Part shown: piece after piece, positions 9,452 through 54,735 of the stretch | Layout: each line of letters opens with the position of its first letter | Position numbering within the stretch: the first letter of the stretch is position 1 | Origin: a bacterium | GTDB lineage: Bacteria > Bacteroidota > Bacteroidia > B-17B0 > Aurantibacillaceae | DNA: 64,000 nt | Assembly: GCA_029945625.1 (NCBI GenBank) | Contig: JAQSCW010000035.1 | Span: 1-64,000, forward strand | Direction of reading: 5' to 3' | Position numbers and translations under genes: made by a program | Notes under the pieces: model-generated | The model's input: the letters and a program-made list of their open reading frames with translations, nothing else | The model's database searches: none | What the model was told of the DNA's origin: nothing

Positions 9452-10156
9452 TCAAAAATCCTTGATCTTTCTTCCGAAATACTCATACAGACTCACGTTC
9501 ATGAGGAGCAGCAGCATACCGTAAAACGTATCTTCAAAAGGAATCGTGAACATTCGGATGCCCAGATTATATTTTGAATTATAGAGCACCACCGGCTCGG
9601 CGATAAAACTTCCGGTTAAAATTCCATTCGACAAGAAGAAAAAGGGAAGAATGAGGATGAAACTCAAGAAGAACACATCTAAAAATTTGACGTTTTTTGA
9701 AACCAGAAAAAATAAGAAACCGGCCAGCAACACAAAAGTCACGGAAGTATACCACTTTGGCGCATTAAAAATTGCTACGAGGAGTAATACTGTGATTCCC
9801 GCGAAAACTGCTCTCCGAAGGAGTGTCTCTGACGCTTTGAACTTCACATATTTTTTTACGCAAAAATAGGTAAATACGCAGGCGTAGGGGATACACACAA
9901 AAAACAGAATTTCTTCAAGGGGAAGGCCCATGAAGCGATAGGGTAAGGTATATTTGGGATTAAAACTCCATACGGCGAGATGTGTAAACAGCGCATCCCA
10001 GAGGATGAAAAACAACGTGGTGATCACCACCGCCGGTACAAAAGATTTCCAAGTTTTATAAAAATTAAATGCCGGAAAAAAAGAAAACAACAATGGGAAA
10101 AAAATGCAGAACAAATCTACCAAAAGGTATGTATAGCGTGGCTCCAAATTAAACAC
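9452..10156 (-). CDS. Lycopene cyclase, fused CrtYcd type
   Basis: 234 residues with about six to seven transmembrane helices. It looks like two tandem copies of the small lycopene-cyclase domain (CrtYc and CrtYd fused), each with a FxWDxxF or PxExxFF-type motif: FFILWDALF then PLEEILFF in the first half, and PFEDTFYGMLL in the second. The predicted reaction is cyclisation of lycopene ends to beta-carotene. The start is GTG at 10156, overlapping the crtZ stop by 8 bases, which implies translational coupling. It is the last gene of the carotenoid operon. Confidence 0.85.
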   Translation of the reverse strand: MFNLEPRYTYLLVDLFCIFFPLLFSFFPAFNFYKTWKSFVPAVVITTLFFILWDALFTHLAVWSFNPKYTLPYRFMGLPLEEILFFVCIPYACVFTYFCVKKYVKFKASETLLRRAVFAGITVLLLVAIFNAPKWYTSVTFVLLAGFLFFLVSKNVKFLDVFFLSFILILPFFFLSNGILTGSFIAEPVVLYNSKYNLGIRMFTIPFEDTFYGMLLLLMNVSLYEYFGRKIKDF

Positions 10157-10604
10157 GCTTTAATTCTTCTCTAAAATATTTGAGCGGCACCCATAACATT
10201 CCAAAACACTCTCCATCTTCAGGACCCAAATGTTTGTGGTGCATTTTATGTGCTTTACGAATGGCGCGGAGGTAAAAATTATTACTTCGCGTAAATAATT
10301 TGAAACGCTGATGGATAAAAATATCATGCACCAAAAAATAACCTAAGCCATAGAAGAAAATTCCTAAACCAATATACAAAGCGGTACTCCAGCCGGGCAA
10401 AAAGGTTCCTGCTGCAAAAAGCAAGATGGAAGGAATGGCAAAAATGATAAAGAAGGTATCGTTGCGTTCCAAAATACTTCCTGCTTTTTTATTATGATGA
10501 TCTTCATGAAGGTTCCACAACCAGCCATGCATTAAGAATTTATGGCTTAACCAGGTTACCCCTTCCATGGTGAGAAATGTGGTGATGGTGATGAGAAAAG
10601 GCAT
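10149..10604 (-). CDS. crtZ: Beta-carotene hydroxylase
   Basis: 151 residues of the fatty-acid hydroxylase/sterol desaturase superfamily. Histidine clusters for the di-iron site are visible: HKFLMHGWLWNLHEDHH near 22-38, HDIFIH near 93-98, and HKMHHKH near 117-123. It should add 3-OH groups to the rings of beta-carotene to give zeaxanthin. Length is typical of CrtZ. It lies between the unknown 168-residue gene (12 bases) and the lycopene cyclase gene (overlapping). Confidence 0.88.
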   Translation of the reverse strand: MPFLITITTFLTMEGVTWLSHKFLMHGWLWNLHEDHHNKKAGSILERNDTFFIIFAIPSILLFAAGTFLPGWSTALYIGLGIFFYGLGYFLVHDIFIHQRFKLFTRSNNFYLRAIRKAHKMHHKHLGPEDGECFGMLWVPLKYFREELKRV

Positions 10605-10616
10605 TGTGTATGATAT

Positions 10617-11123
10617 TTAATTTAAATGAATCAATTTTTTTTCCTCTGCCGAACAATATTCAGAATTGAGCATAAATGTATAAATTTTGTCATAAAGATC
10701 TTGGTCGCCGGCCTGAACCCCTGACTTTAGTTGTTTTAGAATCCGGGCTTTGTCATCAGCCATCGAATTCTTGTATCCTAAAAAATTGGGCGTATTACTT
10801 TGCGTCGAAAATCTCAAAAACCGCAACTCCATATTATCGGGCGATAGTGCAATAGCTTCCTCCAACTCTTTTCTACCCTCCTTAAAATACGAGATCTTTG
10901 AAAGAGGACCCGTCACATGTTTACTCATCATAAAACAGGACATGGCTTTATAGCCTCTTTTTACAGCAGCGCTTTCGTTAGTGAGCGAACGCGTGATGGT
11001 GTAAAATGAAGTTGCCATGGTCGCGCTTTTTTCCGACGCATACAGCATGCGGCGATAAGTGAGTACCTCTGCATCGGGAGCTGAAAACAAGGAGAGCCAG
11101 GATATCAGAATCAGTAGTTTCAT
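10617..11123 (-). CDS. Unknown protein embedded in the carotenoid operon
   Basis: 168 residues with an apparent short signal peptide (MKLLILISWLSLFSAPDA) and a helical mature part resembling a TPR-like fold (KELEEAIALSPDNMELRFLRFSTQ). The ATG overlaps the crtB stop by 4 bases (ATGA), so it is translated with crtB and lies before crtZ. Its position suggests a periplasmic or membrane-associated accessory role in carotenoid metabolism, but no function can be stated. A partner of the same size is, as I recall, often present in Bacteroidota carotenoid operons. Confidence 0.7.
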   Translation of the reverse strand: MKLLILISWLSLFSAPDAEVLTYRRMLYASEKSATMATSFYTITRSLTNESAAVKRGYKAMSCFMMSKHVTGPLSKISYFKEGRKELEEAIALSPDNMELRFLRFSTQSNTPNFLGYKNSMADDKARILKQLKSGVQAGDQDLYDKIYTFMLNSEYCSAEEKKLIHLN

Positions 11124-11956
11124 ATCATACGCAAGGAATGACGGAAAAAGGAAGTCATTAATAAACTTACTTTCTCAGTATTGGGAACACGTACGCGTTC
11201 CGATAAAATTCGTCCGGGAGGAACCGCCTTAATTTTATTAAAAAGACTGCGGTAATACACATAGGCAACATAAACGCCAAAACGTGAGGAAGACGGAAGT
11301 TGTTTAATTCCCTTTAGTGCTTCATCAAAATCACTTTCGATTTCTTTCTCAATCTCATTTTTTTCGGCCTTACTAAAATTGCGCATATTAATTTGGGGGA
11401 AATAAGTTCTGCCCAATGCTTCAAAATCATTTTTAAGATCTCTCAAAAAATTCACCTTTTGAAAGGCGGCCCCTAATTTCATGGCCGTAGGTTTGAGGTG
11501 TTGGTATTGGTTATCGTTACCTTCGGTGAAAACACGCAGACACATAAGGCCCACCACCTCAGCCGAACCAAGAATGTACTGACTGTAAGAGTGCTGTGAA
11601 TGAAAATTCTGATCCAGATCCATTTCCATGCTGTCTAAAAAACGATCAATAAGTTCCCTGTCAATATGATACTGATTCACTACTTCCTGAAAACTATTCA
11701 AGATTGGATTTAAACTTATTTTACGATCTATGGCCTTGTACGTGTCTTGCCTGAATTCTTTAAGAAGCGCCGCCTTGTCGTACTCGTGAAAACTATCCAC
11801 GATCTCATCCGCAAAGCGTACAAATCCGTAGATATTGTAAATGGCCCTGTGAAACCGTTGATTTAAACAATAAATTCCCAACGAAAAACTTGTGCTGTAA
11901 GTTTTGGTGGTGAATTTGCTGGCATGTGCCGATACATCATCGAACAATTGTTTCAT
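11120..11956 (-). CDS. crtB: Phytoene synthase
   Basis: 278 residues of the squalene/phytoene synthase family. Both aspartate-rich Mg-diphosphate motifs are present: D50-E-I-V-D54 and D173-L-K-N-D177. The protein condenses two geranylgeranyl diphosphates to phytoene. Its ATG lies 11 bases after the crtI stop. The GGPP synthase gene is not in the window. Sequence length and motif spacing are normal. Confidence 0.92.
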   Translation of the reverse strand: MKQLFDDVSAHASKFTTKTYSTSFSLGIYCLNQRFHRAIYNIYGFVRFADEIVDSFHEYDKAALLKEFRQDTYKAIDRKISLNPILNSFQEVVNQYHIDRELIDRFLDSMEMDLDQNFHSQHSYSQYILGSAEVVGLMCLRVFTEGNDNQYQHLKPTAMKLGAAFQKVNFLRDLKNDFEALGRTYFPQINMRNFSKAEKNEIEKEIESDFDEALKGIKQLPSSSRFGVYVAYVYYRSLFNKIKAVPPGRILSERVRVPNTEKVSLLMTSFFRHSLRMI

Positions 11957-11967
11957 GTGTTTTGGAA

Positions 11968-13464
11968 TTAAGCGTTAATAACTGATTGGTTGGTTTTCTT
12001 TAAATATTTTTGGGTCTGTTCAGCGGCAATTTGTCCGGATATAAGGGCAGGCGGAACTCCGGGACCGGGTACGGTTAACTGACCTGCATAAAATAAATTC
12101 TTTAAATGTTTGTTTTGCATGCTTGGCTTTAATACGGCAGTTTGCATGAGTGTATTTGCTAATCCGTAGGCGTTTCCTTTATAGGCATTGTAATCTTTTT
12201 CGAAATCGGACACACAATAGCTGCGCTTCACCACAATACTGTCTCTAATGGAATGTCCACAGGTTTTTTCCATGCGGGTCATAATTTTATCGAAATACAG
12301 TTCCCTTAATTCCGGTGTATCGTTAATTCCTGCTGCAAGAGGAATGAGTACAAATAAATTTTCGTGGCCTTCGGGAGCTACTGCCGGATCTGTTTTAGAA
12401 GGAGCGCATACATAAAATAAAGGATCTTCGGGCCAGCGAGGTTCTTTGTAGATGTCGGCTGCGTGCTGCTTAAAATCGGCATCAAAAAATAAATTATGAT
12501 GCACCAGTTTGTCAATTTTTTTAGTTGTGCCCAAATAGAAAATCAAACTGGTAGGTGCCATGGTTCTTTCATTCCAATATGATTCCTTGTAATTACGGTG
12601 CTCCTCATCTAACAAGTGCTGTTCTATATGATGGTAGTCTCCTGTCGCAATAGTGGCGTCGGCTCTATATATGCCCCTAGTGGTGGCAAGCTCCTGCACT
12701 TTATGATGGGCCGTCAGTATTTTCTGCACTTCGGTATGGGTGTGGATTTCTACGCCCAATGATTTTGCCAGATCGGCCATACCTTCCACCACCTTATACA
12801 TGCCCCCCATGGGGTACCAAGTGCCCATTTGAAAGGCCGCATAATTCATTAAACTATAGAGTGCGGGAATTTGTTGCGGCATGGCCCCTAAAAACAACAC
12901 CGGAAATTCCATAAGCGCAATGAGGCGTTCGTCTTTAAAAAAACTTCGCACGTAAGAGCTCATGGATTTAAAGATGTGGGTTTTAAAAACACCTTTCACG
13001 ACGTTAAACGTGGCATACTCCGACCAGGATAAAGCCGGTTTATAGATCAATTGATCCATGGCAATCGCATATTTAAGACCGCCCTCCTTCATGAATTTCT
13101 TTAGTTGCTGCGCACTTCCCGGCTCAATAGATTCAAAGAGTTGGTAAATCCCCTCGAGTTCATTTGGCACCTTAAGGGGACTACTGCCGGAAAAAAACAC
13201 CTGGAAAGCGGGATCTGTTTTAACGAGGGTATAATAATCGGAAGGGGATTTGCCGAATTGCCCGAAAAAATTCTCAAAAACATCGGGCATCCAATACCAG
13301 CTTGGCCCCATATCGAACAAAAACTCTTGTTCTTTAAAATAGCGCGAACGGCCGCCAATACTAGCGTTCTTCTCAAACACGTGCACGGTGTTTCCCTTCT
13401 TAGCCGCAAAACATGCCGCCGAAAGTCCGGAATAACCACTGCCTATAATGTTGATTGTTGCCAT
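11968..13464 (-). CDS. crtI: Phytoene desaturase (CrtI family)
   Basis: 498 residues. An N-terminal dinucleotide-binding fold (IIGSGYSGLSAACFAA, then VFEKN and GGRSRYF) binds FAD, and the C-terminal carotenoid-oxidase signature LFYAGQLTVPGPGVPPALISGQ is intact. It should desaturate phytoene to lycopene. It is the first biosynthetic gene after the regulator. A perfect inverted repeat at 13468-13503 ends four bases from its ATG, so transcription or translation of the whole crt block could be controlled here. Confidence 0.92.
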   Translation of the reverse strand: MATINIIGSGYSGLSAACFAAKKGNTVHVFEKNASIGGRSRYFKEQEFLFDMGPSWYWMPDVFENFFGQFGKSPSDYYTLVKTDPAFQVFFSGSSPLKVPNELEGIYQLFESIEPGSAQQLKKFMKEGGLKYAIAMDQLIYKPALSWSEYATFNVVKGVFKTHIFKSMSSYVRSFFKDERLIALMEFPVLFLGAMPQQIPALYSLMNYAAFQMGTWYPMGGMYKVVEGMADLAKSLGVEIHTHTEVQKILTAHHKVQELATTRGIYRADATIATGDYHHIEQHLLDEEHRNYKESYWNERTMAPTSLIFYLGTTKKIDKLVHHNLFFDADFKQHAADIYKEPRWPEDPLFYVCAPSKTDPAVAPEGHENLFVLIPLAAGINDTPELRELYFDKIMTRMEKTCGHSIRDSIVVKRSYCVSDFEKDYNAYKGNAYGLANTLMQTAVLKPSMQNKHLKNLFYAGQLTVPGPGVPPALISGQIAAEQTQKYLKKTNQSVINA

Positions 13465-13467
13465 TTA

Positions 13468-13503
13468 TTTTGTTTAATCTTTTTGTAAAAGTATTAAACA
13501 AAA
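13468..13503 (-). promoter_or_regulatory. Putative operator/promoter of crtI: perfect 11-bp inverted repeat
   Basis: TTTTGTTTAAT (13468-13478) and ATTAAACAAAA (13493-13503) are exact reverse complements separated by 14 bases. The repeat lies in the 55-base gap between the regulator stop and the crtI ATG. On the minus strand a TACTTTTA, close to the Bacteroidota -7 box, starts at the inner edge of the first arm and runs through the spacer. The obvious candidate binder is the MerR/B12 protein encoded next door, but this is inference. Confidence 0.6.
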
Positions 13504-13519
13504 CTGAATTTCCGAAATT

Positions 13520-14395
13520 CTATAGAAATTTTAACAAATCGTGGGGGGAATGGAGGATTTGGACGTGTTTTTCGTTTTTGAGGGCATTCATGAGATCGTG
13601 ATTACCCGACACCAACAGTTTGGTTTCGGGAGGTAATCCCATTTTTTTTCGCAGATTTTTTACTTCTCCTTCATCTTTACGTGCAATGAAAAATGCCAGT
13701 ACTGCGTCGGCTTTGGTGTAGTTGAGCACGGCGGCAACATTCTCATAAGGTACATTTTGACCCAAATAAATGGTTTCGCCTCCTTTAACTTTTATGATGT
13801 AATTCGAAAAAAGAAGCCCAATTTCGTGCCATTCGTCGGGCGGGAGCATTAAAATGAACTTCCTGCCTTTCTTTGCATTGATGGGCAGAGCATCGGTAGA
13901 GGCCATCAGTTTTCGACGAATGATACTGGAGGCAAAATGTTCCTGAACAGGCATGCTATTGTCGATAATCCACATCAACCCTACTTTATTAAGGAAGGGA
14001 TAAAATACCTGAATCATGGCTTCGAATACACCGAAACGCGTAACGGCTGCCGAAAATGTTTTTTCAAAAGCAAGTTCACTGAAGGTGAGCATCGAAGCAG
14101 TGAGGTCGTTCACAAAAGATAACGCGATGGCATCGCCTTCATTCTCCACTTGCAAGTCCATAATAGCTTTGTGTATGGCGCTCTCATTAAGCGCAGCAAT
14201 TTTTGAGATCTTTAAGCCTCCGGCCAATAAGGTGGATACATTGAGTAATTTGCGCACCTGTTTGTCGTCGTACATCCGAATGTTTGTGCTGGTGCGATCG
14301 GGTTCAATCAAATTATAACGTTTTTCCCAAATGCGAATGGTATGTGCTTTTATTCCCGAGAGGTGTTCAAGGTCTGCGATCTGATAGGATTTCAT
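13520..14395 (-). CDS. MerR-family regulator with B12-binding domain (CarH-like photoreceptor)
   Basis: 291 residues from ATG 14395; a TTG 21 bases upstream is less likely. Residues 1-70 are a MerR winged helix (YQIADLEHLSG, HTIRIWEKRY). The middle is a four-helix B12 cap with W142-x9-E152-H153, the motif that packs on adenosylcobalamin in CarH. A cobalamin-binding domain follows with E188-x-H190-x2-G193, where His is the expected lower Co ligand. CarH proteins repress carotenoid genes in the dark and release DNA on light. Placement 55 bases before crtI fits that role exactly. Light response here is inferred, not shown. Confidence 0.87.
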   Translation of the reverse strand: MKSYQIADLEHLSGIKAHTIRIWEKRYNLIEPDRTSTNIRMYDDKQVRKLLNVSTLLAGGLKISKIAALNESAIHKAIMDLQVENEGDAIALSFVNDLTASMLTFSELAFEKTFSAAVTRFGVFEAMIQVFYPFLNKVGLMWIIDNSMPVQEHFASSIIRRKLMASTDALPINAKKGRKFILMLPPDEWHEIGLLFSNYIIKVKGGETIYLGQNVPYENVAAVLNYTKADAVLAFFIARKDEGEVKNLRKKMGLPPETKLLVSGNHDLMNALKNEKHVQILHSPHDLLKFL

Positions 14396-14442
14396 GGACG
14401 AATTAATGTGGTTCAAAATTAGAAATTATTCTTCGTGTGCCC

Positions 14443-14892
14443 TTAACTATTAACCGGTTCTTCAACGCCGGATGTTTTGATGATCTCCCAGGTATGATCA
14501 CTGAGTAATTTTACACTACTCACATATTCCAGATCCTTCTTTTTGCTCCGCCCCCATTCATCGGGACCAATCATCATGAGCTGATGACCTTCTTCTCTTT
14601 TGTAGAGATGATAGGTGTGTCCCACAAAAGGCTCGAAGGAAATCCGCGCCTCATAAATGAGCTCACTGGTATCTGCCCGATGTTTTATTGCTTTGGCTTG
14701 CCTAGCGAGCAACTCCACTTGTTTTTGAATCTGTTGCAGGGCCATCGCTGTTTGCTCCCTCATGGCAGACAAAGCACGTGATTTTAATTTCCCCTCATCT
14801 TCAGGCCTCACCACCACGCTTCCCAAATGGTGGGGGTAGATTAATAGTCCGGGAAATTCCGCTACTTTCTCTTTATCAATGGGATTTATCAT
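14443..14892 (-). CDS. DUF2452-domain protein
   Basis: 149 residues without signal peptide. It carries the family's FPGLLIYPHHLGSVVVRPEDEGKLKSRA-type N-terminus, a central helix (MREQTAMALQQIQKQVELL) and a C-terminal region with FEPFVGHTYHLY and GPDEWG. The role of this family is unknown. It lies 47 bases upstream of the CarH-like regulator in the same direction and may be the first gene of the carotenoid transcript. Confidence 0.75.
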   Translation of the reverse strand: MINPIDKEKVAEFPGLLIYPHHLGSVVVRPEDEGKLKSRALSAMREQTAMALQQIQKQVELLARQAKAIKHRADTSELIYEARISFEPFVGHTYHLYKREEGHQLMMIGPDEWGRSKKKDLEYVSSVKLLSDHTWEIIKTSGVEEPVNS

Positions 14893-14957: not shown

Positions 14958-14993
14958 AATTGTTTAAAAAGTGCCGCAATAAACTAAACAATT
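14958..14993. promoter_or_regulatory. Inverted repeat in divergent DUF2452/SRPBCC intergenic region
   Basis: AATTGTTTA (14958-14966) and TAAACAATT (14985-14993) are exact reverse complements 18 bases apart. TGCCGCAA occurs twice around it (14972-14979 and 14993-15000). The TTGTTTA/TAAACAA core is the same as in the repeat before crtI. This suggests one regulator acting on both the carotenoid operon and the divergent SRPBCC gene. Confidence 0.5.
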
Positions 14994-15048: not shown

Positions 15049-15510
15049 ATGCTGCACACCCTCAAAACACGTCAGTTCATCAAAAGCGATCTTAACACCG
15101 TTTGGCGCTTTATTAGCTCGCCTAAAAACCTTGCCCTCATCACACCTGCTTATATGGGTTTTAACATTCTTGATAAGGATCTTCTTAATGAAGAGATGTA
15201 TGCCGGTCAAATTATTGAGTACACAGTTTCCCCGGTACTGGGCATCAAACTTCATTGGGTTACCGAAATTACGCACGTACAGGATCTTGTGTATTTTGTA
15301 GACGAGCAGCGCATGGGACCCTACGCCTTTTGGCACCACCGCCATTTTCTGAAAGAAGTTCCCGGCGGAATTGAAATGACCGATGTGGTGCATTATAAAT
15401 TGCCGCTCGGTATTTTGGGTAGGATTCTCAACTTACTTTTTGTGAGACATAAACTCAAAGAGATTTTTGATTACCGTTTCGAGAAACTCAATGAGATTTT
15501 TAATAAGTAA
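15049..15510 (+). CDS. SRPBCC-family protein
   Basis: 153 residues with the START/Bet v1-like layout: an N-terminal strand TLKTRQFIKSDLNTVWRFISSPKNLALITP, then a run of strands including GQIIEYTVSPVLGIKLHWVTEI, and a C-terminal helix. Such proteins bind hydrophobic ligands in a deep pocket. It is transcribed away from the carotenoid operon and shares its control region. A link to carotenoid or membrane-lipid handling is plausible but unproven. Confidence 0.75.
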   Translation: MLHTLKTRQFIKSDLNTVWRFISSPKNLALITPAYMGFNILDKDLLNEEMYAGQIIEYTVSPVLGIKLHWVTEITHVQDLVYFVDEQRMGPYAFWHHRHFLKEVPGGIEMTDVVHYKLPLGILGRILNLLFVRHKLKEIFDYRFEKLNEIFNK

Positions 15511-15569: not shown

Positions 15570-17153
15570 TTAACTCGATACCCCCAAAATGGCTTGCACT
15601 AAGCCCAGGTCGTCAAAGGTTGGCGGCATGGTAAAATTTCTGACTTTCATTTTTGTGAGCGCCTTGCCGGTACTCTCGCCCATGGCAATGACTTTTTGAT
15701 GCGCATGAATTTTGTTTTTTTCCAAATACGCCTCCAAATTACTTGGACTGGTAAACACCAAAATTTCGTGGTCGGGTGAAACTTCAATGCTATTTTTTAA
15801 GGTGGCATACACTTCCAAATTAAACACGTTTTCACGTTTCACCATCTGCCATTGAATGCTTTGCATGCTGCCGCGCGCAATGGGGAATAATACTCTGCCG
15901 CTTCCTACTTTGCTGCTGAACTGTTTTCCCACCAATTTAATATCGGTGCTTTGTCCTATAAAATCAGCGCGACGGTTAAACTTGCGTAACTCCGCACTGG
16001 TAGAAGTACCAATGCAGCCAAATTTGGCATGATCTACTTTTGGATTCTGATTAAAGAAATAACGCACCGAATGTTTGCTGCTAAAAAAAATCCAGTCAGT
16101 TTGCGGCAATTCCTTAATTCGAATTTGTTTGAACTCAATTAAACTTTTTCCTTCCACCTCAAATTCCAAACGCTTTAAAGCTCTTGGTAAATAATCGTCT
16201 TCTCTAAATGTTTTGCTGAGAAATACTTTTTTTGGACGAATATTTTTAATCTGATCCACAATCTGATCGCTGAACCCATCGGTATCGAGCGTCTCAAAAT
16301 ACAATTGTTTGGGCTGTTTGTCCCAGGCATCGGCCATACTCACCCATACTTTAAATCTCAAACGGTCTTCATCATCTTCTTCATTATCACAATACACACC
16401 GAGGGGTAATTGACAACCGCCATCAAACATTTGTAAAACCTGACGTTCAATATTTATCTTAATCAACACATCCAAATCGCTGATCTCATCAATCACTTCC
16501 AGTAATTCTGTATCGTCTTCCCGAGCCTGCCAGGCCAAGACTCCCTGCGCAGGAGCAGGCACAAATTCAGCGGTATTTAAATGCTCCACATGCAGATCGT
16601 CCAAATCCAACTCCAAACGTTCCACCCCTGCCGTGGCCAACATAATGGCATCATAATCTCCCTTGCGTAATTTAGCGACACGGGTTGGTACATTGCCACG
16701 CATATCTTTTATTTGTACATCGGGCCGGAATGCCAGAAGCTGCGATTTACGTCGTGCGGAAGAAGTCCCCACGATGGCGCCCTTTTTTAGTCCGAATTTC
16801 ATGGTATCGTCCATCACTTCCTTGCTCATCACCAGCATATCGCTGGGATCCTGGCGTTTCGAAACGCCTGCTACCATCAACCCATCCGGCATTTCGGTTT
16901 GCAAATCTTTATGAGAATGCACGGCCAGATCGATGCTTTTATTCAGCAAAGATTCTTCCAGTTCTTTGGTAAAAAAACCTTTGCCTTCCAATTTATCAAA
17001 ACTGGTGTCCCATTCCTGACTGCGATCGCCTTCGGTTGAAATGATTTTTATTTCTACCGCATGACCTTTTTCTTCCAATAATTTTTTGGTATAATTGGCT
17101 TGCCAAAGAGCAAGGTCACTGCCGCGCGTGCCTATAATAATTTTTCTTTCCAC
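15570..17153 (-). CDS. hemCD: Fused hydroxymethylbilane synthase / uroporphyrinogen-III synthase
   Basis: 527 residues from GTG 17153. The frame extends to 17234, but the family begins at ERKIIIGTRGSDLALWQA. Residues 1 to about 295 are HemC (porphobilinogen deaminase), with SHKD and ARR motifs and the dipyrromethane-cofactor Cys247 in FDGGCQLPLG. The remainder is a HemD domain (FLSKTFRE... IFFSSKHSVRYFF... IGTSTSAELRKF... FTSPSNLEAYL). Together they make uroporphyrinogen III in the heme pathway. The fusion is full length. hemA lies 2.5 kb away on the same strand. Confidence 0.92.
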   Translation of the reverse strand: MERKIIIGTRGSDLALWQANYTKKLLEEKGHAVEIKIISTEGDRSQEWDTSFDKLEGKGFFTKELEESLLNKSIDLAVHSHKDLQTEMPDGLMVAGVSKRQDPSDMLVMSKEVMDDTMKFGLKKGAIVGTSSARRKSQLLAFRPDVQIKDMRGNVPTRVAKLRKGDYDAIMLATAGVERLELDLDDLHVEHLNTAEFVPAPAQGVLAWQAREDDTELLEVIDEISDLDVLIKINIERQVLQMFDGGCQLPLGVYCDNEEDDEDRLRFKVWVSMADAWDKQPKQLYFETLDTDGFSDQIVDQIKNIRPKKVFLSKTFREDDYLPRALKRLEFEVEGKSLIEFKQIRIKELPQTDWIFFSSKHSVRYFFNQNPKVDHAKFGCIGTSTSAELRKFNRRADFIGQSTDIKLVGKQFSSKVGSGRVLFPIARGSMQSIQWQMVKRENVFNLEVYATLKNSIEVSPDHEILVFTSPSNLEAYLEKNKIHAHQKVIAMGESTGKALTKMKVRNFTMPPTFDDLGLVQAILGVSS

Positions 17154-17157
17154 GCGG

Positions 17158-17165
17158 CAAAGATA
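17158..17165 (-). promoter_or_regulatory. -7 box (TATCTTTG) immediately upstream of hemCD
   Basis: The minus strand reads TATCTTTG, a perfect match to the Bacteroidota -7 element TAnnTTTG, four bases before the GTG start of hemCD. A start site about seven bases downstream would give an mRNA with almost no leader. Confidence 0.5.
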
Positions 17166-17267
17166 AAATATTATGCTATACCGCCTTCCAAAACCGCAGA
17201 TTAAATGGGCCTCCGAGCTTTCAAAACCGGGCAAATTTTCGTAATTTTAGTCGTAGAAATTACATCC

Positions 17268-19076: not shown

Positions 19077-19231
19077 AACGTGGCGGAAAAAATCATTAGG
19101 ACTAATTAATTTCTGTTCATGATAAATCTTTTTCTATTATTTTATGCATTCTCCGTTCCTTCTCTCTGTTCTCAGCAGTAAACGCGATTTGAAGAAACGG
19201 GTCATGCGGAAAAGTTTTGGGGAAAGTTTTT

Positions 19232-19370
19232 GGGCGTGCCCCCTGAAGCGAAAAACCTACCAAAAACAATTCCTGGTTTTTCTGCTTCAGGGGTCGCGCT
19301 TTCCGTTCCAAGTCCTCGCCACGCAAAGAGACAGGCGTGGCTGTGGGCTTTCCACTACAATCGCTCACGC
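19232..19370 (+). repeat. Composite hairpin repeat, family R1, copy 1
   Basis: Begins GGGCGTGCCCCCTGAAGCG and ends CGCTCACGC. The first stem pairs CCCCTGAAGCGAAAAACC with GGTTTTTCTGCTTCAGGGG. A second short stem pairs GCCACGC with GCGTGGC around the loop AAAGAGACAG. Then comes GGGCTTTCCACTACAATCGCTCACGC. Copies 2 (19459-19633) and 3 (54593-54735) share the ends and the stem layout but not all stem sequences. Confidence 0.8.
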
Positions 19371-19656: not shown

Positions 19657-20883
19657 CTATTTATTGGAAAGAAAAACTTCCTTCGCGGTTTTAATCGCCA
19701 CCGCATTGTATTTTTTTTCCATATAGGTAAGCACTTTTTCAAGCACTTCTTTACTGTGGAGATCGAGTAAATCTATTTCTTTCGCAAAAATTTCATTCAC
19801 CGCCAAATCTTTGATGGCCTTTACTTGTTTGGGGACCTCACCAAAAGCCAATTCAATTTTACGTTCTGCATAAAGTGAATCAAAGTCAGAGGCCTTGGTG
19901 CTAATGATCTCTTCGCATTTTACAATTTCATTTCTCCGGAGTTGCAAATTTGCTTCTGCTTGTGCTCTCAAGGAATTGATGTCGATATAATGCACCTGTT
20001 TATTTTTTGAAACGGCTTCATCCACATTGGCAGGCAGACTCAAATCAATGATCACTTTTTTAGAAGTTTCGTTTCGCAACAAACTTTCATATACCTGTGG
20101 CGTGATAAGAGACTGCGAACTCGAAGTACATACCACCAACACATCAAATCCACCTTCAAAATTCATGATGGATGCCAGGTCGATGGCTTTTCCGTGAAGG
20201 ATCGCGGCCAATTTCTCGGCATGTGCCTGTGTGCGGTTAAACACGGTAAAATTTGAAAATTCGTGTTTTTGAAAATAGCTGGCCAAAACCGTATTGGTTT
20301 CTCCACTTCCTACAAATACAATTCGCGCATCGTTCTTAATGCCCAAGTGACGTAATTGACGGTAAGCCAAACTGGCCACTGAAACCGGATTTTTTGCGAT
20401 ATCGGTATCGGTATAAATTTCTTTAGCCGTAATAATGGTTTGTTTAATAAGCAAACGCAAGAAATCGCCGGTGAGACCCAAGGCATGAGAAAAATCATAC
20501 GACTTTCTCACCTGAGTTATGATCTCACGTTCACCAACTACCATGCTGTCGAGAGAGGAAGCTACGCGGAGCATGTGCTCAACTGCCAGTTTTCCCTGAT
20601 GCACCGCAGCTGTTTGTGCAAGAATTTGGGCTTCTTCGGTGCTTAATGTTTTATTGAGAAAAAGAGCGATGTCCGCCACCAAAGTCTCGTTGATCTCTGT
20701 AGCGGATGTAAGCAGCAATTCAATGCGGTTGCAGGTGCTTAGGAACATGAGCTCCGTGAAGCCAAATCGGACTTTAAGTTCAGGCAAAATAAATGACTGA
20801 TCTTCCTGAGTCAGGTGCAATTTTCCAATGAGTTCCAGAGGAAGACTTTTGTGTGTGAAGGCTATGACTTTTAAAGAATTCAT
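19657..20883 (-). CDS. hemA: Glutamyl-tRNA reductase
   Basis: 408 residues from ATG 20883; a TTG 12 bases upstream is unlikely. It carries FLSTCNRIELLL with the catalytic Cys, the VVGEREIITQVRKSY substrate-tRNA segment, the NADPH-binding IVFVGSGETN, and a C-terminal dimerisation helix. It reduces glutamyl-tRNA to glutamate-1-semialdehyde, the first step of C5 heme synthesis. A CATCTTTG (one mismatch to the -7 box) lies 9 bases before the ATG, as for hemCD. The gene is normal in length. Confidence 0.92.
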   Translation of the reverse strand: MNSLKVIAFTHKSLPLELIGKLHLTQEDQSFILPELKVRFGFTELMFLSTCNRIELLLTSATEINETLVADIALFLNKTLSTEEAQILAQTAAVHQGKLAVEHMLRVASSLDSMVVGEREIITQVRKSYDFSHALGLTGDFLRLLIKQTIITAKEIYTDTDIAKNPVSVASLAYRQLRHLGIKNDARIVFVGSGETNTVLASYFQKHEFSNFTVFNRTQAHAEKLAAILHGKAIDLASIMNFEGGFDVLVVCTSSSQSLITPQVYESLLRNETSKKVIIDLSLPANVDEAVSKNKQVHYIDINSLRAQAEANLQLRRNEIVKCEEIISTKASDFDSLYAERKIELAFGEVPKQVKAIKDLAVNEIFAKEIDLLDLHSKEVLEKVLTYMEKKYNAVAIKTAKEVFLSNK

Positions 20884-20968
20884 TTGCTCGCACAAAGATG
20901 TGTTTTCCCAAAATTTTAATTGTCATGGAACTGTCATGTACGGTAAAACATGACCAAGATCAGTCAGA

Positions 20969-23294: not shown

Positions 23295-23470
23295 GGCGCC
23301 CGGGCGGGCCACTACGGACTCGGCTGCTTTCGCACAATCTCGCTCAAAAGTTCACTGAACTTTTGCCGCCACTTTTTGCTGCGCCAAGAGAGACAGGCGC
23401 AGCAAAAGAGCACATCAACACTTAGGCTCGCTCCAAAGCCCACTGGGCTTTGGCCGTGTCCCTGGCGCTG
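23295..23470 (+). repeat. Composite hairpin repeat, family R2, copy 1
   Basis: Runs from GGCGCCCGGGCGGGCCAC to CCCTGGCGC with three internal stems. The first is CAAAAGTTCACTGAACTTTTG. The second is TTTTGCTGCGCC/GGCGCAGCAAAA with loop AAGAGAGACA. The third is CCAAAGCCCACTGGGCTTTGG. It is the main content of the 606-base gap between yifB and the next T9SS gene; the remainder of that gap is AT-rich without a gene. A second copy lies inverted at 56702-56872. Confidence 0.82.
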
Positions 23471-52994: not shown

Positions 52995-53041
52995 ATTACT
53001 TGATGACCTAGTCTGCCAAAAACCCAAACTTCGCCGCAACT

Positions 53042-53108
53042 GAGACTCTTCGACCGCCGCGGTTAAACATGGTAAAGCGGTCTCTGAGTGACGGTCATTT
53101 GTAAGATT
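53042..53108 (+). repeat. 67-bp direct repeat, copy 1
   Basis: Starts GAGACTCTTCGACCGCCGCGG and ends TCATTTGTAAGATT. GACCGC pairs with GCGGTC across the middle to form a hairpin. Copy 2 lies at 53408-53474 in the same direction. Differences between copies fall mainly in the hairpin loop (AACATGG versus TTGTTGC). Confidence 0.8.
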
Positions 53109-53158: not shown

Positions 53159-53400
53159 AACTGCGGCTGCTTACTGCCAACTGCCCCTGCCTCCTGCTGC
53201 TGCCCGCTGCCCAAGCCTACTCCTAAGTGTTCCTAAGTGTCCTTAGTGTCTTAGTGGTAGAGCCAACTGCCCCTGCCTTCTGCCTCCTGCCAACTTCCTT
53301 CTGCCAACTAAAACCTCCCTTAGTGCTCCTTCATGCCCTCAGTGTCTTAGTGGTCCCCGCCCATTGCACCTGCCTACTGCATTCTCATTCATAATATCCC
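53159..53400. repeat. Low-complexity CTGCC-rich stretch with CTTAGTGTCTTAGTGG motifs
   Basis: The stretch between the two 67-bp repeats is made of degenerate CTGCC(A/T)ACTGCCCCTGCC phrases, plus two CTTAGTGTCTTAGTGG-type phrases near 53240 and 53340. The same phrase also occurs near 9400. No ORF is credible. Confidence 0.65.
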
Positions 53401-53407
53401 CGGAACA

Positions 53408-53474
53408 GAGACTCTTCGACCGCCGCGGTTATTGTTGCTAAAGCGGTCTCTGAGTGACGATCATTTGTAGGATT
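53408..53474 (+). repeat. 67-bp direct repeat, copy 2
   Basis: Same element as 53042-53108, with GATCATTTGTAGGATT at the end. It is followed to 53520 by more CTTAGTG phrases, directly against the 3' end of the pirin gene. Confidence 0.8.
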
Positions 53475-54495: not shown

Positions 54496-54592
54496 ATAAC
54501 ATTAAACTGGTGTAAATCAAAATTACGAAATTTTAAAGATTTCTGTTTGGTGTTTGATTGTCGTCAAAGGGGAATTTGAAGAGATGTTTTTT

Positions 54593-54735
54593 GGGCGTGC
54601 CCCCTGAAGCGAAAAACTATTCAAAAAAATTCCTTGTTTTTCTGCTTCAGGGGTCAGGCTTTCGCCACTCGCTCTTTTTGCCAGAGTCAATTTTGGAGCA
54701 AAAAGGAGCTCAAACAATGGCTCAATCCTTCACGC
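54593..54735 (+). repeat. Composite hairpin repeat, family R1, copy 3
   Basis: Starts GGGCGTGCCCCCTGAAGCG and ends CTTCACGC. The first stem pairs CCCCTGAAGCGAAAAAC with GTTTTTCTGCTTCAGGGG. The second stem here is GCTCTTTTTGC with GCAAAAAGGAGC, a different sequence in the same place. It sits in the 396-base gap between the pirin and PD40 genes. Confidence 0.8.

Follow-up and report, generated by a model that had tools for sequence, protein, structure and literature searches.

The locus raises the question of whether the inverted repeat between crtI and the gene of a CarH-like regulator is a site at which this regulator acts, and whether light is the signal. Light-induced carotenoids have been reported from a Bacteroidota isolate in which no car or lit operon was located and for which its authors proposed a regulator not yet known (PMC7064467). 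The stretch of 64 000 nucleotides (the window) was analysed as a whole and was compared with its own genome (4.1 Mb), with loci carrying relatives of the regulator, and with genomes of the family and the phylum.

The palindrome before crtI and its surroundings

The inverted arms TTTTGTTTAAT (13468-13478) and ATTAAACAAAA (13493-13503) match at 11/11 positions over a loop of 14 bases, as stated in the first-pass annotation; the spacer to the crtI start codon (13462-13464, minus strand) is three bases long (13465-13467) and not four, as was given there. With a loop of 8-20, this exact pair of arms is found once in the window and in 0/100 shuffles. Counted anonymously, the palindrome is less striking: five matches with perfect 11-base arms and a loop of 3-30, corresponding to four distinct palindromes, were found in the whole window, against a mean of 0.9 in first-order simulations (n = 200; five were reached in 1/200), and longer, imperfect palindromes are present as well. 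Its size is uncommon yet not unique in the window, and for this reason related genomes were compared. The significance of the palindrome comes from its conservation in these genomes and not from generic palindrome statistics, which are weak evidence; the earlier view that an 11/11 match in this place is notable holds for the exact pair and its conservation, less so for the palindrome as such.

The unit that is conserved is not the pair of 11-bp arms originally put forward. It is a 32-bp element, TTGTTTAA-N16-TTAAACAA, in which two inverted copies of TTAAACAA enclose a fixed centre of 16 bases and both arms contain TAAACA, a form of the half-site TnnACA. For searches, the element was written either as 7-base arms with a gap of 18 or as the exact 16-base pattern with N16. 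The features of the region are as follows.

9452-10156, minus strand: lycopene cyclase (PF18916, TIGR03462 domain)
10149-10604, minus strand: protein of the fatty-acid-hydroxylase family (Pfam family), which we take to be probably crtZ
10617-11123, minus strand: 168-aa protein without a Pfam family, between crtB and the hydroxylase gene
11120-11956, minus strand: crtB-like phytoene synthase (SQS_PSY)
11968-13464, minus strand: crtI, phytoene desaturase (NCBIfam CrtID, 717.8 bits, cut-off 640)
13468-13503, no strand: Operator 1 (predicted), before crtI, with the core TTGTTTAA-N16-TTAAACAA at 13470-13501
13520-14395, minus strand: CarH/LitR-like MerR regulator, 291 aa from the ATG at 14395 (298 aa from a TTG start at 14416)
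14443-14892, minus strand: DUF2452 gene (PF10504, E 4.5e-17), directly upstream of the regulator gene and on the same strand
14960-14991, no strand: Operator 2 (predicted), TTGTTTAA-N16-CTAAACAA, 15/16, in the divergent gap
15049-15510, plus strand: 153-aa gene, divergent from the regulator unit (Pfam Polyketide_cyc, E 0.13, below cut-off), presumably SRPBCC-like

Operator 2 lies between the DUF2452 gene upstream of the regulator gene, at a distance of 67 bp, and the divergent 153-aa gene, at a distance of 57 bp, a position from which this predicted site could control the regulator unit. A third copy is located on another contig, 37 bp before the gene of an ECF sigma factor. When the own genome was searched with 7-base arms and a free gap of 12-24, these three matches were obtained, all with a gap of 18; two are exact and one is 15/16. 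With up to two mismatches, 15 matches were found in the own genome versus 17 in the control, i.e. nothing beyond the three sites above chance.

Other features of the window were recorded by the way. The ORFs at 15570-17234 and 19657-20895, judged by eye, look like fused hemC-hemD and hemA; if this identity holds, tetrapyrrole genes lie near the carotenoid unit. A dispersed 54-nt repeat (19227-19280 and 54588-54641, 83% identity), each copy with an imperfect hairpin with 22-nt arms, has the look of an intergenic repeat element. A 78-nt repeat is present twice (53031-53108 and 53397-53474), its copies being 87% identical and 366 bp apart from start to start, and a perfect 12-bp G+C-rich inverted repeat with a loop of 10 bases (23374-23407) is perhaps a terminator.

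Recurrence of the element and the genes behind it

Eighty named loci with relatives of the regulator (1.39 Mb) were scanned for exact arm pairs at gaps of 0-44. Of the 44 pairs found, 37 had a gap of 18, four a gap of 19 and three another gap; reversed arms, used as control, gave three pairs over all gaps. An exact pair at gap 18 was present in 31/80 loci, and a pair with at most one mismatch in 55/80. Carriers of the element include Algoriphagus winogradskyi (L096) and Dyadobacter crusticola (L090). The remaining 25 named loci had no site even at this tolerance, and a search of them for other symmetric arms gave no clear peak (two at gap 18, one at gap 19, 0-2 elsewhere). Among the variants, L139:5107 is symmetric with both arms changed (TTGTCTA/TAGACAA, gap 18) and is located directly before the regulator gene. 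A gap of 19, that is one extra central base, is the second commonest spacing in the 80 loci; sites of this kind adjoin the regulator gene at L005:2374 and L013:2378, where they precede it, and at L007:2395, where the site has one mismatch and follows it.

The exact 16-base pattern was found at 102 places in 87 genomes of the family and at two in the backward control. With relatives of the regulator called at E 1e-3, the exact element was present in 54/59 regulator-bearing and in 1/28 regulator-lacking family genomes (Fisher 2e-16; since sites and genomes are related by descent, Fisher values overstate independence and give orders of magnitude only). In the single exception the element lies inside an ORF, and five of the 59 regulator-bearing family genomes were without an exact site. 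Within the genus of the window, the element was found in 29/31 genomes with the regulator versus 1/9 without it. One genome (G050) gave seven matches to a looser arm pattern with 0 in the control; the exact element and the regulator were not found in it.

A sample of 247 genomes from the phylum contained the exact element at 71 places, against five in the control. Relatives of the regulator, called here at E 1e-20, were present in 56 of these genomes, and the element was found in 32/56 with such a relative versus 0/191 without, as all 32 site-bearing genomes fall among the 56 regulator-positive ones; the other 24/56 regulator-bearing genomes had no exact site. In its family, genome G313 alone among the sampled members has the element or the regulator, and it has both on one contig, which suggests that they were transferred together; on this contig (C4:129928-132046), site and regulator relative are 1.2 kb apart. 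The first-pass annotation had named a lack of conservation in orthologous gaps as the observation that would speak against it. This comparison was run, and in other Bacteroidota, too, the element is found in front of crtI and of the regulator gene, with its spacing unchanged. The annotation was right about the place and the regulator, and the element tracks the presence of the regulator.

For the genes behind the element, 193 sites were compiled, 126 with exact 7-base arms and 67 with one mismatch; target labels and gene order were taken from a simple ORF caller and from BLAST to the proteins of the window. As the arm pattern served to select the sites, and in part to fetch them, the logo and the following shares hold for this set and cannot be taken as those of a random sample: 82 of the 193 precede a gene of the same ECF family as that in the own genome, 31 crtI (one of them also faces a homologue of the 168-aa gene), 29 the regulator gene, six a DUF2452 or 153-aa homologue and 32 other genes, while nine are inside ORFs and four have no gene within 350 bp. 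For the 126 exact sites alone, the corresponding numbers are 44 (ECF), 26 (crtI), 13 (regulator), six (DUF2452 and/or 153-aa gene), 28 (other genes), seven (inside an ORF) and two (no gene within 350 bp).

Twenty proteins picked from 41 groups of other neighbours were subjected to a Pfam scan. Besides TonB receptors and DUF4397 proteins, this identified GTP cyclohydrolase I (folE; a group of six loci), 6-pyruvoyl tetrahydropterin synthase (PTPS; three), fasciclin-domain proteins (six) and a bacteriorhodopsin-like protein (two), with TspO, DUF2805, a nitroreductase, a flavin oxidoreductase and others as single examples. The largest neighbour group, with 24 entries, is that of a class II tRNA synthetase whose gene adjoins the ECF gene; this group and several others may simply happen to lie nearby. 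The carotenoid operon proposed as target at the outset is represented by crtI among the genes behind the element, but the gene set is wider than carotenoids. Elements also occur in close pairs, 41-45 bp apart in 16/30 and 62-64 bp apart in 6/30, which is near whole turns.

The −7 box of Bacteroidota promoters has the consensus TAnnTTTG. Its position was determined at 145 oriented sites, which were kept from a 195-entry list (two of the window's own sites counted twice) if just one of their two sides carried a recognised gene and each side offered 80 bases of flank. The box was found at offsets −4, 17, 6, 10 and 9 in 34, 16, 11, 11 and 10 of the 145 sites, respectively, with a flank background of 0.29 per position. 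These peak offsets overlap the element, and the peak at −4 is partly built in because the left arm supplies the TTG of the box. The window's own copy has imperfect −7 boxes only, CAGTTTTG and TACTTTTA. A protein bound on the element would cover the transcription start, a placement as for a repressor.

The regulator and its predicted mode of action

The MerR domain of the regulator (PF13411) was recognised with 54.3 bits (cut-off 21.6). Both motifs attributed to the protein at first reading, W-x9-E-H and E-x-H-x2-G, are present as W142-x9-E152-H153 and E188-x-H190-x2-G193; in 43 aligned relatives, W142, E152 and E188 are each kept in 43, H190 in 42, H153 in 41 and the final G193 in only 25. The sequence matches CarH of Thermus thermophilus over both domains (best E 6e-17). 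A structure model (pLDDT 89.8, pTM 0.75) contains the helices of the four-helix bundle and the Rossmann fold, and its best fold match is CarH (5c8d; E 2.7e-16, TM 0.57 for the whole chain) with the domains rotated relative to one another; taken by itself, the B12 domain aligns with that of CarH at about 3.5 Å. The NCBIfam model TransRegCarH gave 91.2 bits with a cut-off of 400, i.e. the regulator is CarH-like and not CarH itself. The helix-bundle Pfam domain reached 19.2 bits (cut-off 23; above cut-off in L027 and L029), and the Rossmann B12 domain (PF02310) 14.7 bits (cut-off 32.1) with E-x-H kept. With a score far below the NCBIfam CarH cut-off and scores below the Pfam B12 cut-offs, the protein is a distant relative of CarH. 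In T. thermophilus CarH, W131, E141, H142 and H177 are listed among the residues that bind AdoCbl (PMC11796333). The own genome encodes a cobalamin adenosyltransferase.

The element is very probably a DNA docking site, common to many Bacteroidota, for a light sensor of the vitamin B12 type, and the genes marked by it are probably switched on in light. Judged from sequence, the palindrome is likely to be the operator of the adjacent CarH/LitR-like MerR repressor, which would hold a light-response regulon off in the dark. As a putative operator the conserved element is well supported, and its predicted link to the regulator is strong; control of the regulon by B12 and light would rest on homology. 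In the dark, with adenosylcobalamin, an oligomer of the regulator would bridge the two half-sites, which at a distance of about 21 bp (two turns) are on the same face of the DNA, and would thereby cover the −7 promoter box. Light would break the Co-C bond and the oligomer would fall apart; the crt operon, the regulator unit, the 153-aa gene and the ECF sigma gene would then be transcribed, and the ECF sigma factor would possibly pass the signal on.

It is possible, with a distinctly smaller probability, that the element is the operator of the CarH-like protein but that this protein works without B12, or that a partner protein or singlet oxygen acts as its switch, as for CarA or class II LitR. 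According to published accounts, B12 is not needed for DNA binding by CarA, and a LOV partner acts as the switch of class II LitR; in addition, the Rossmann part of the regulator is weak as a B12 domain and G193 is found in only 25/43 relatives. The residues of the AdoCbl type are kept, however, with W142, E152 and E188 invariant, H153 in 41/43 and H190 in 42/43 (cf. the available text of PMC11796333), and the gene for cobalamin adenosyltransferase in the genome also argues against a B12-independent signal.

A site of another transcription factor that shares the neighbourhood and the species range of the CarH-like regulator is improbable. Co-occurrence alone cannot separate the regulator from co-inherited factors such as the ECF sigma factor, but the regulator is favoured because the arm contains TnnACA, the CarH half-site in the available text of the published accounts, and because the element is located before the regulator's own gene in 29/193 sites. 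ECF sigma factors are not known to recognise symmetric 32-bp palindromes, which also counts against another factor of this kind.

That the element works as RNA, as a leader hairpin or terminator, is very improbable: the window copy does fold as RNA (−11.5 kcal/mol, z −4.1) and the symmetric arm variant L139:5107 bears on this reading, but pairing among the inner 16 bases does not exceed that after column shuffling (3.13 versus 3.14 of 8, sd 0.11; exact sites, 128-entry list with two double counts of own sites), the arm letters and not just their pairing are conserved, no U tract follows the window copy, and only 9/126 exact sites are inside an ORF or without a gene start within 350 bp.

If the element is the operator of the CarH-like repressor, as preferred here, then it would be readable from sequence, and candidate light regulons, including rhodopsin and ECF sigma genes, would be obtained in many species at once.

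Comparison with known light-responsive regulators

CarH operators are described in published accounts as three or four tandem 11-bp direct repeats, nnnnTnnACAn. Of three such repeats in Thermus, the first and the last, 22 bp apart, are contacted by a single head-to-tail dimer. Divided into 11-bp modules, the element reads 11-10-11, with half-site centres 21 bp apart, which is two helical turns; the central TnnACA position is filled in 2/126 exact sites. The half-site distance in the predicted operator is thus familiar from Thermus CarH (22 bp), whereas the orientation is not. Tandem 11-bp direct repeats were not found in the three window gaps searched; two tandem repeats are present, as a raw count, within 80 bp of 13/190 sites. 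At first reading, the operator had been called unlike any that could be named: this does not apply to the half-site, as TnnACA is the published half-site of CarH, but it does apply to the inverted, widely spaced layout, and the predicted operator is a new variant in layout on the familiar CarH/LitR half-site. Among the literature matches listed, with subscription journals mostly outside, no description of the element as a Bacteroidota operator was found. Further literature used for the comparisons, in its available parts, was PMC9304148, PMC8156234, PMC9758184, PMC6739363, PMC5241685 and PMC12627116; the following likenesses and differences refer to published accounts to the same extent.

CarH of Thermus thermophilus and Bacillus megaterium (class I LitR) shares with the regulator the MerR domain, the four-helix bundle, the Rossmann fold and the AdoCbl-contact residues, and with the element the half-site TnnACA and an operator that overlaps a crt promoter; it differs in that the half-sites are tandem direct repeats there and a single inverted pair with a 16-base centre here. 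CarA of Myxococcus xanthus is a CarH paralogue, and the site proposed for it at a crt promoter has inverted repeats, one of them perfect. These are degenerate in relatives, and the operator of about 55 bp is read as 11-bp direct repeats, whereas here one inverted pair at constant spacing recurs through a phylum.

The operator of class II LitR of Pseudomonas (PplR1, PmlR2), T(G/A)TACA-N12-TGTA(C/T)A, can be read as TGTnnA-N12-TnnACA, and the regulon of class II LitR includes folE and photolyase; FolE and photolyase of Pseudomonas putida are light-induced through it. There, 12 bases separate the hexamers and a Rossmann domain is absent, as opposed to 18 bases and a Rossmann domain here. Membership of the regulator in class II LitR was ruled out by the Rossmann domain in the model and by the lack of gap-12 arm pairs (0 exact pairs at gap 12 versus 37 at gap 18 in the 80 loci). 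CtMerR of Chloracidobacterium thermophilum is a MerR-family protein with a B12-binding domain that matches the regulator model (8jbt) and was reported to be light-responsive; unlike here, an alternative DNA site was suggested by its authors.

In Streptomyces coelicolor, the ECF sigma factor LitS reportedly directs light-dependent transcription of carotenoid genes, and LitR is said to have a part in it. This system belongs to another phylum, and the ECF gene here is linked only through the shared site. MliR was considered as a published member of the group and was rejected as a different protein, of 109 residues and without an effector domain according to the available text (PMC9478572).

Taken as a dyad, the layout would point to a symmetric oligomer. 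We lean slightly towards the view that a Bacteroidota branch of the CarH type grips DNA differently, at a dyad of TnnACA half-sites two turns apart that is often repeated at 41-45 or 62-64 bp, which would imply a symmetric oligomer unlike the direct-repeat tetramer of Thermus and a widespread light regulon comprising an ECF sigma factor, carotenoids, rhodopsin, pterin synthesis and TspO; on this view, sequence would reveal how non-phototrophic Bacteroidota respond to light. This raises the question of how a family of DNA-binding domains came to use inverted instead of direct half-sites, a point that matters for the quaternary structure of the B12 photoreceptor employed in optogenetics.
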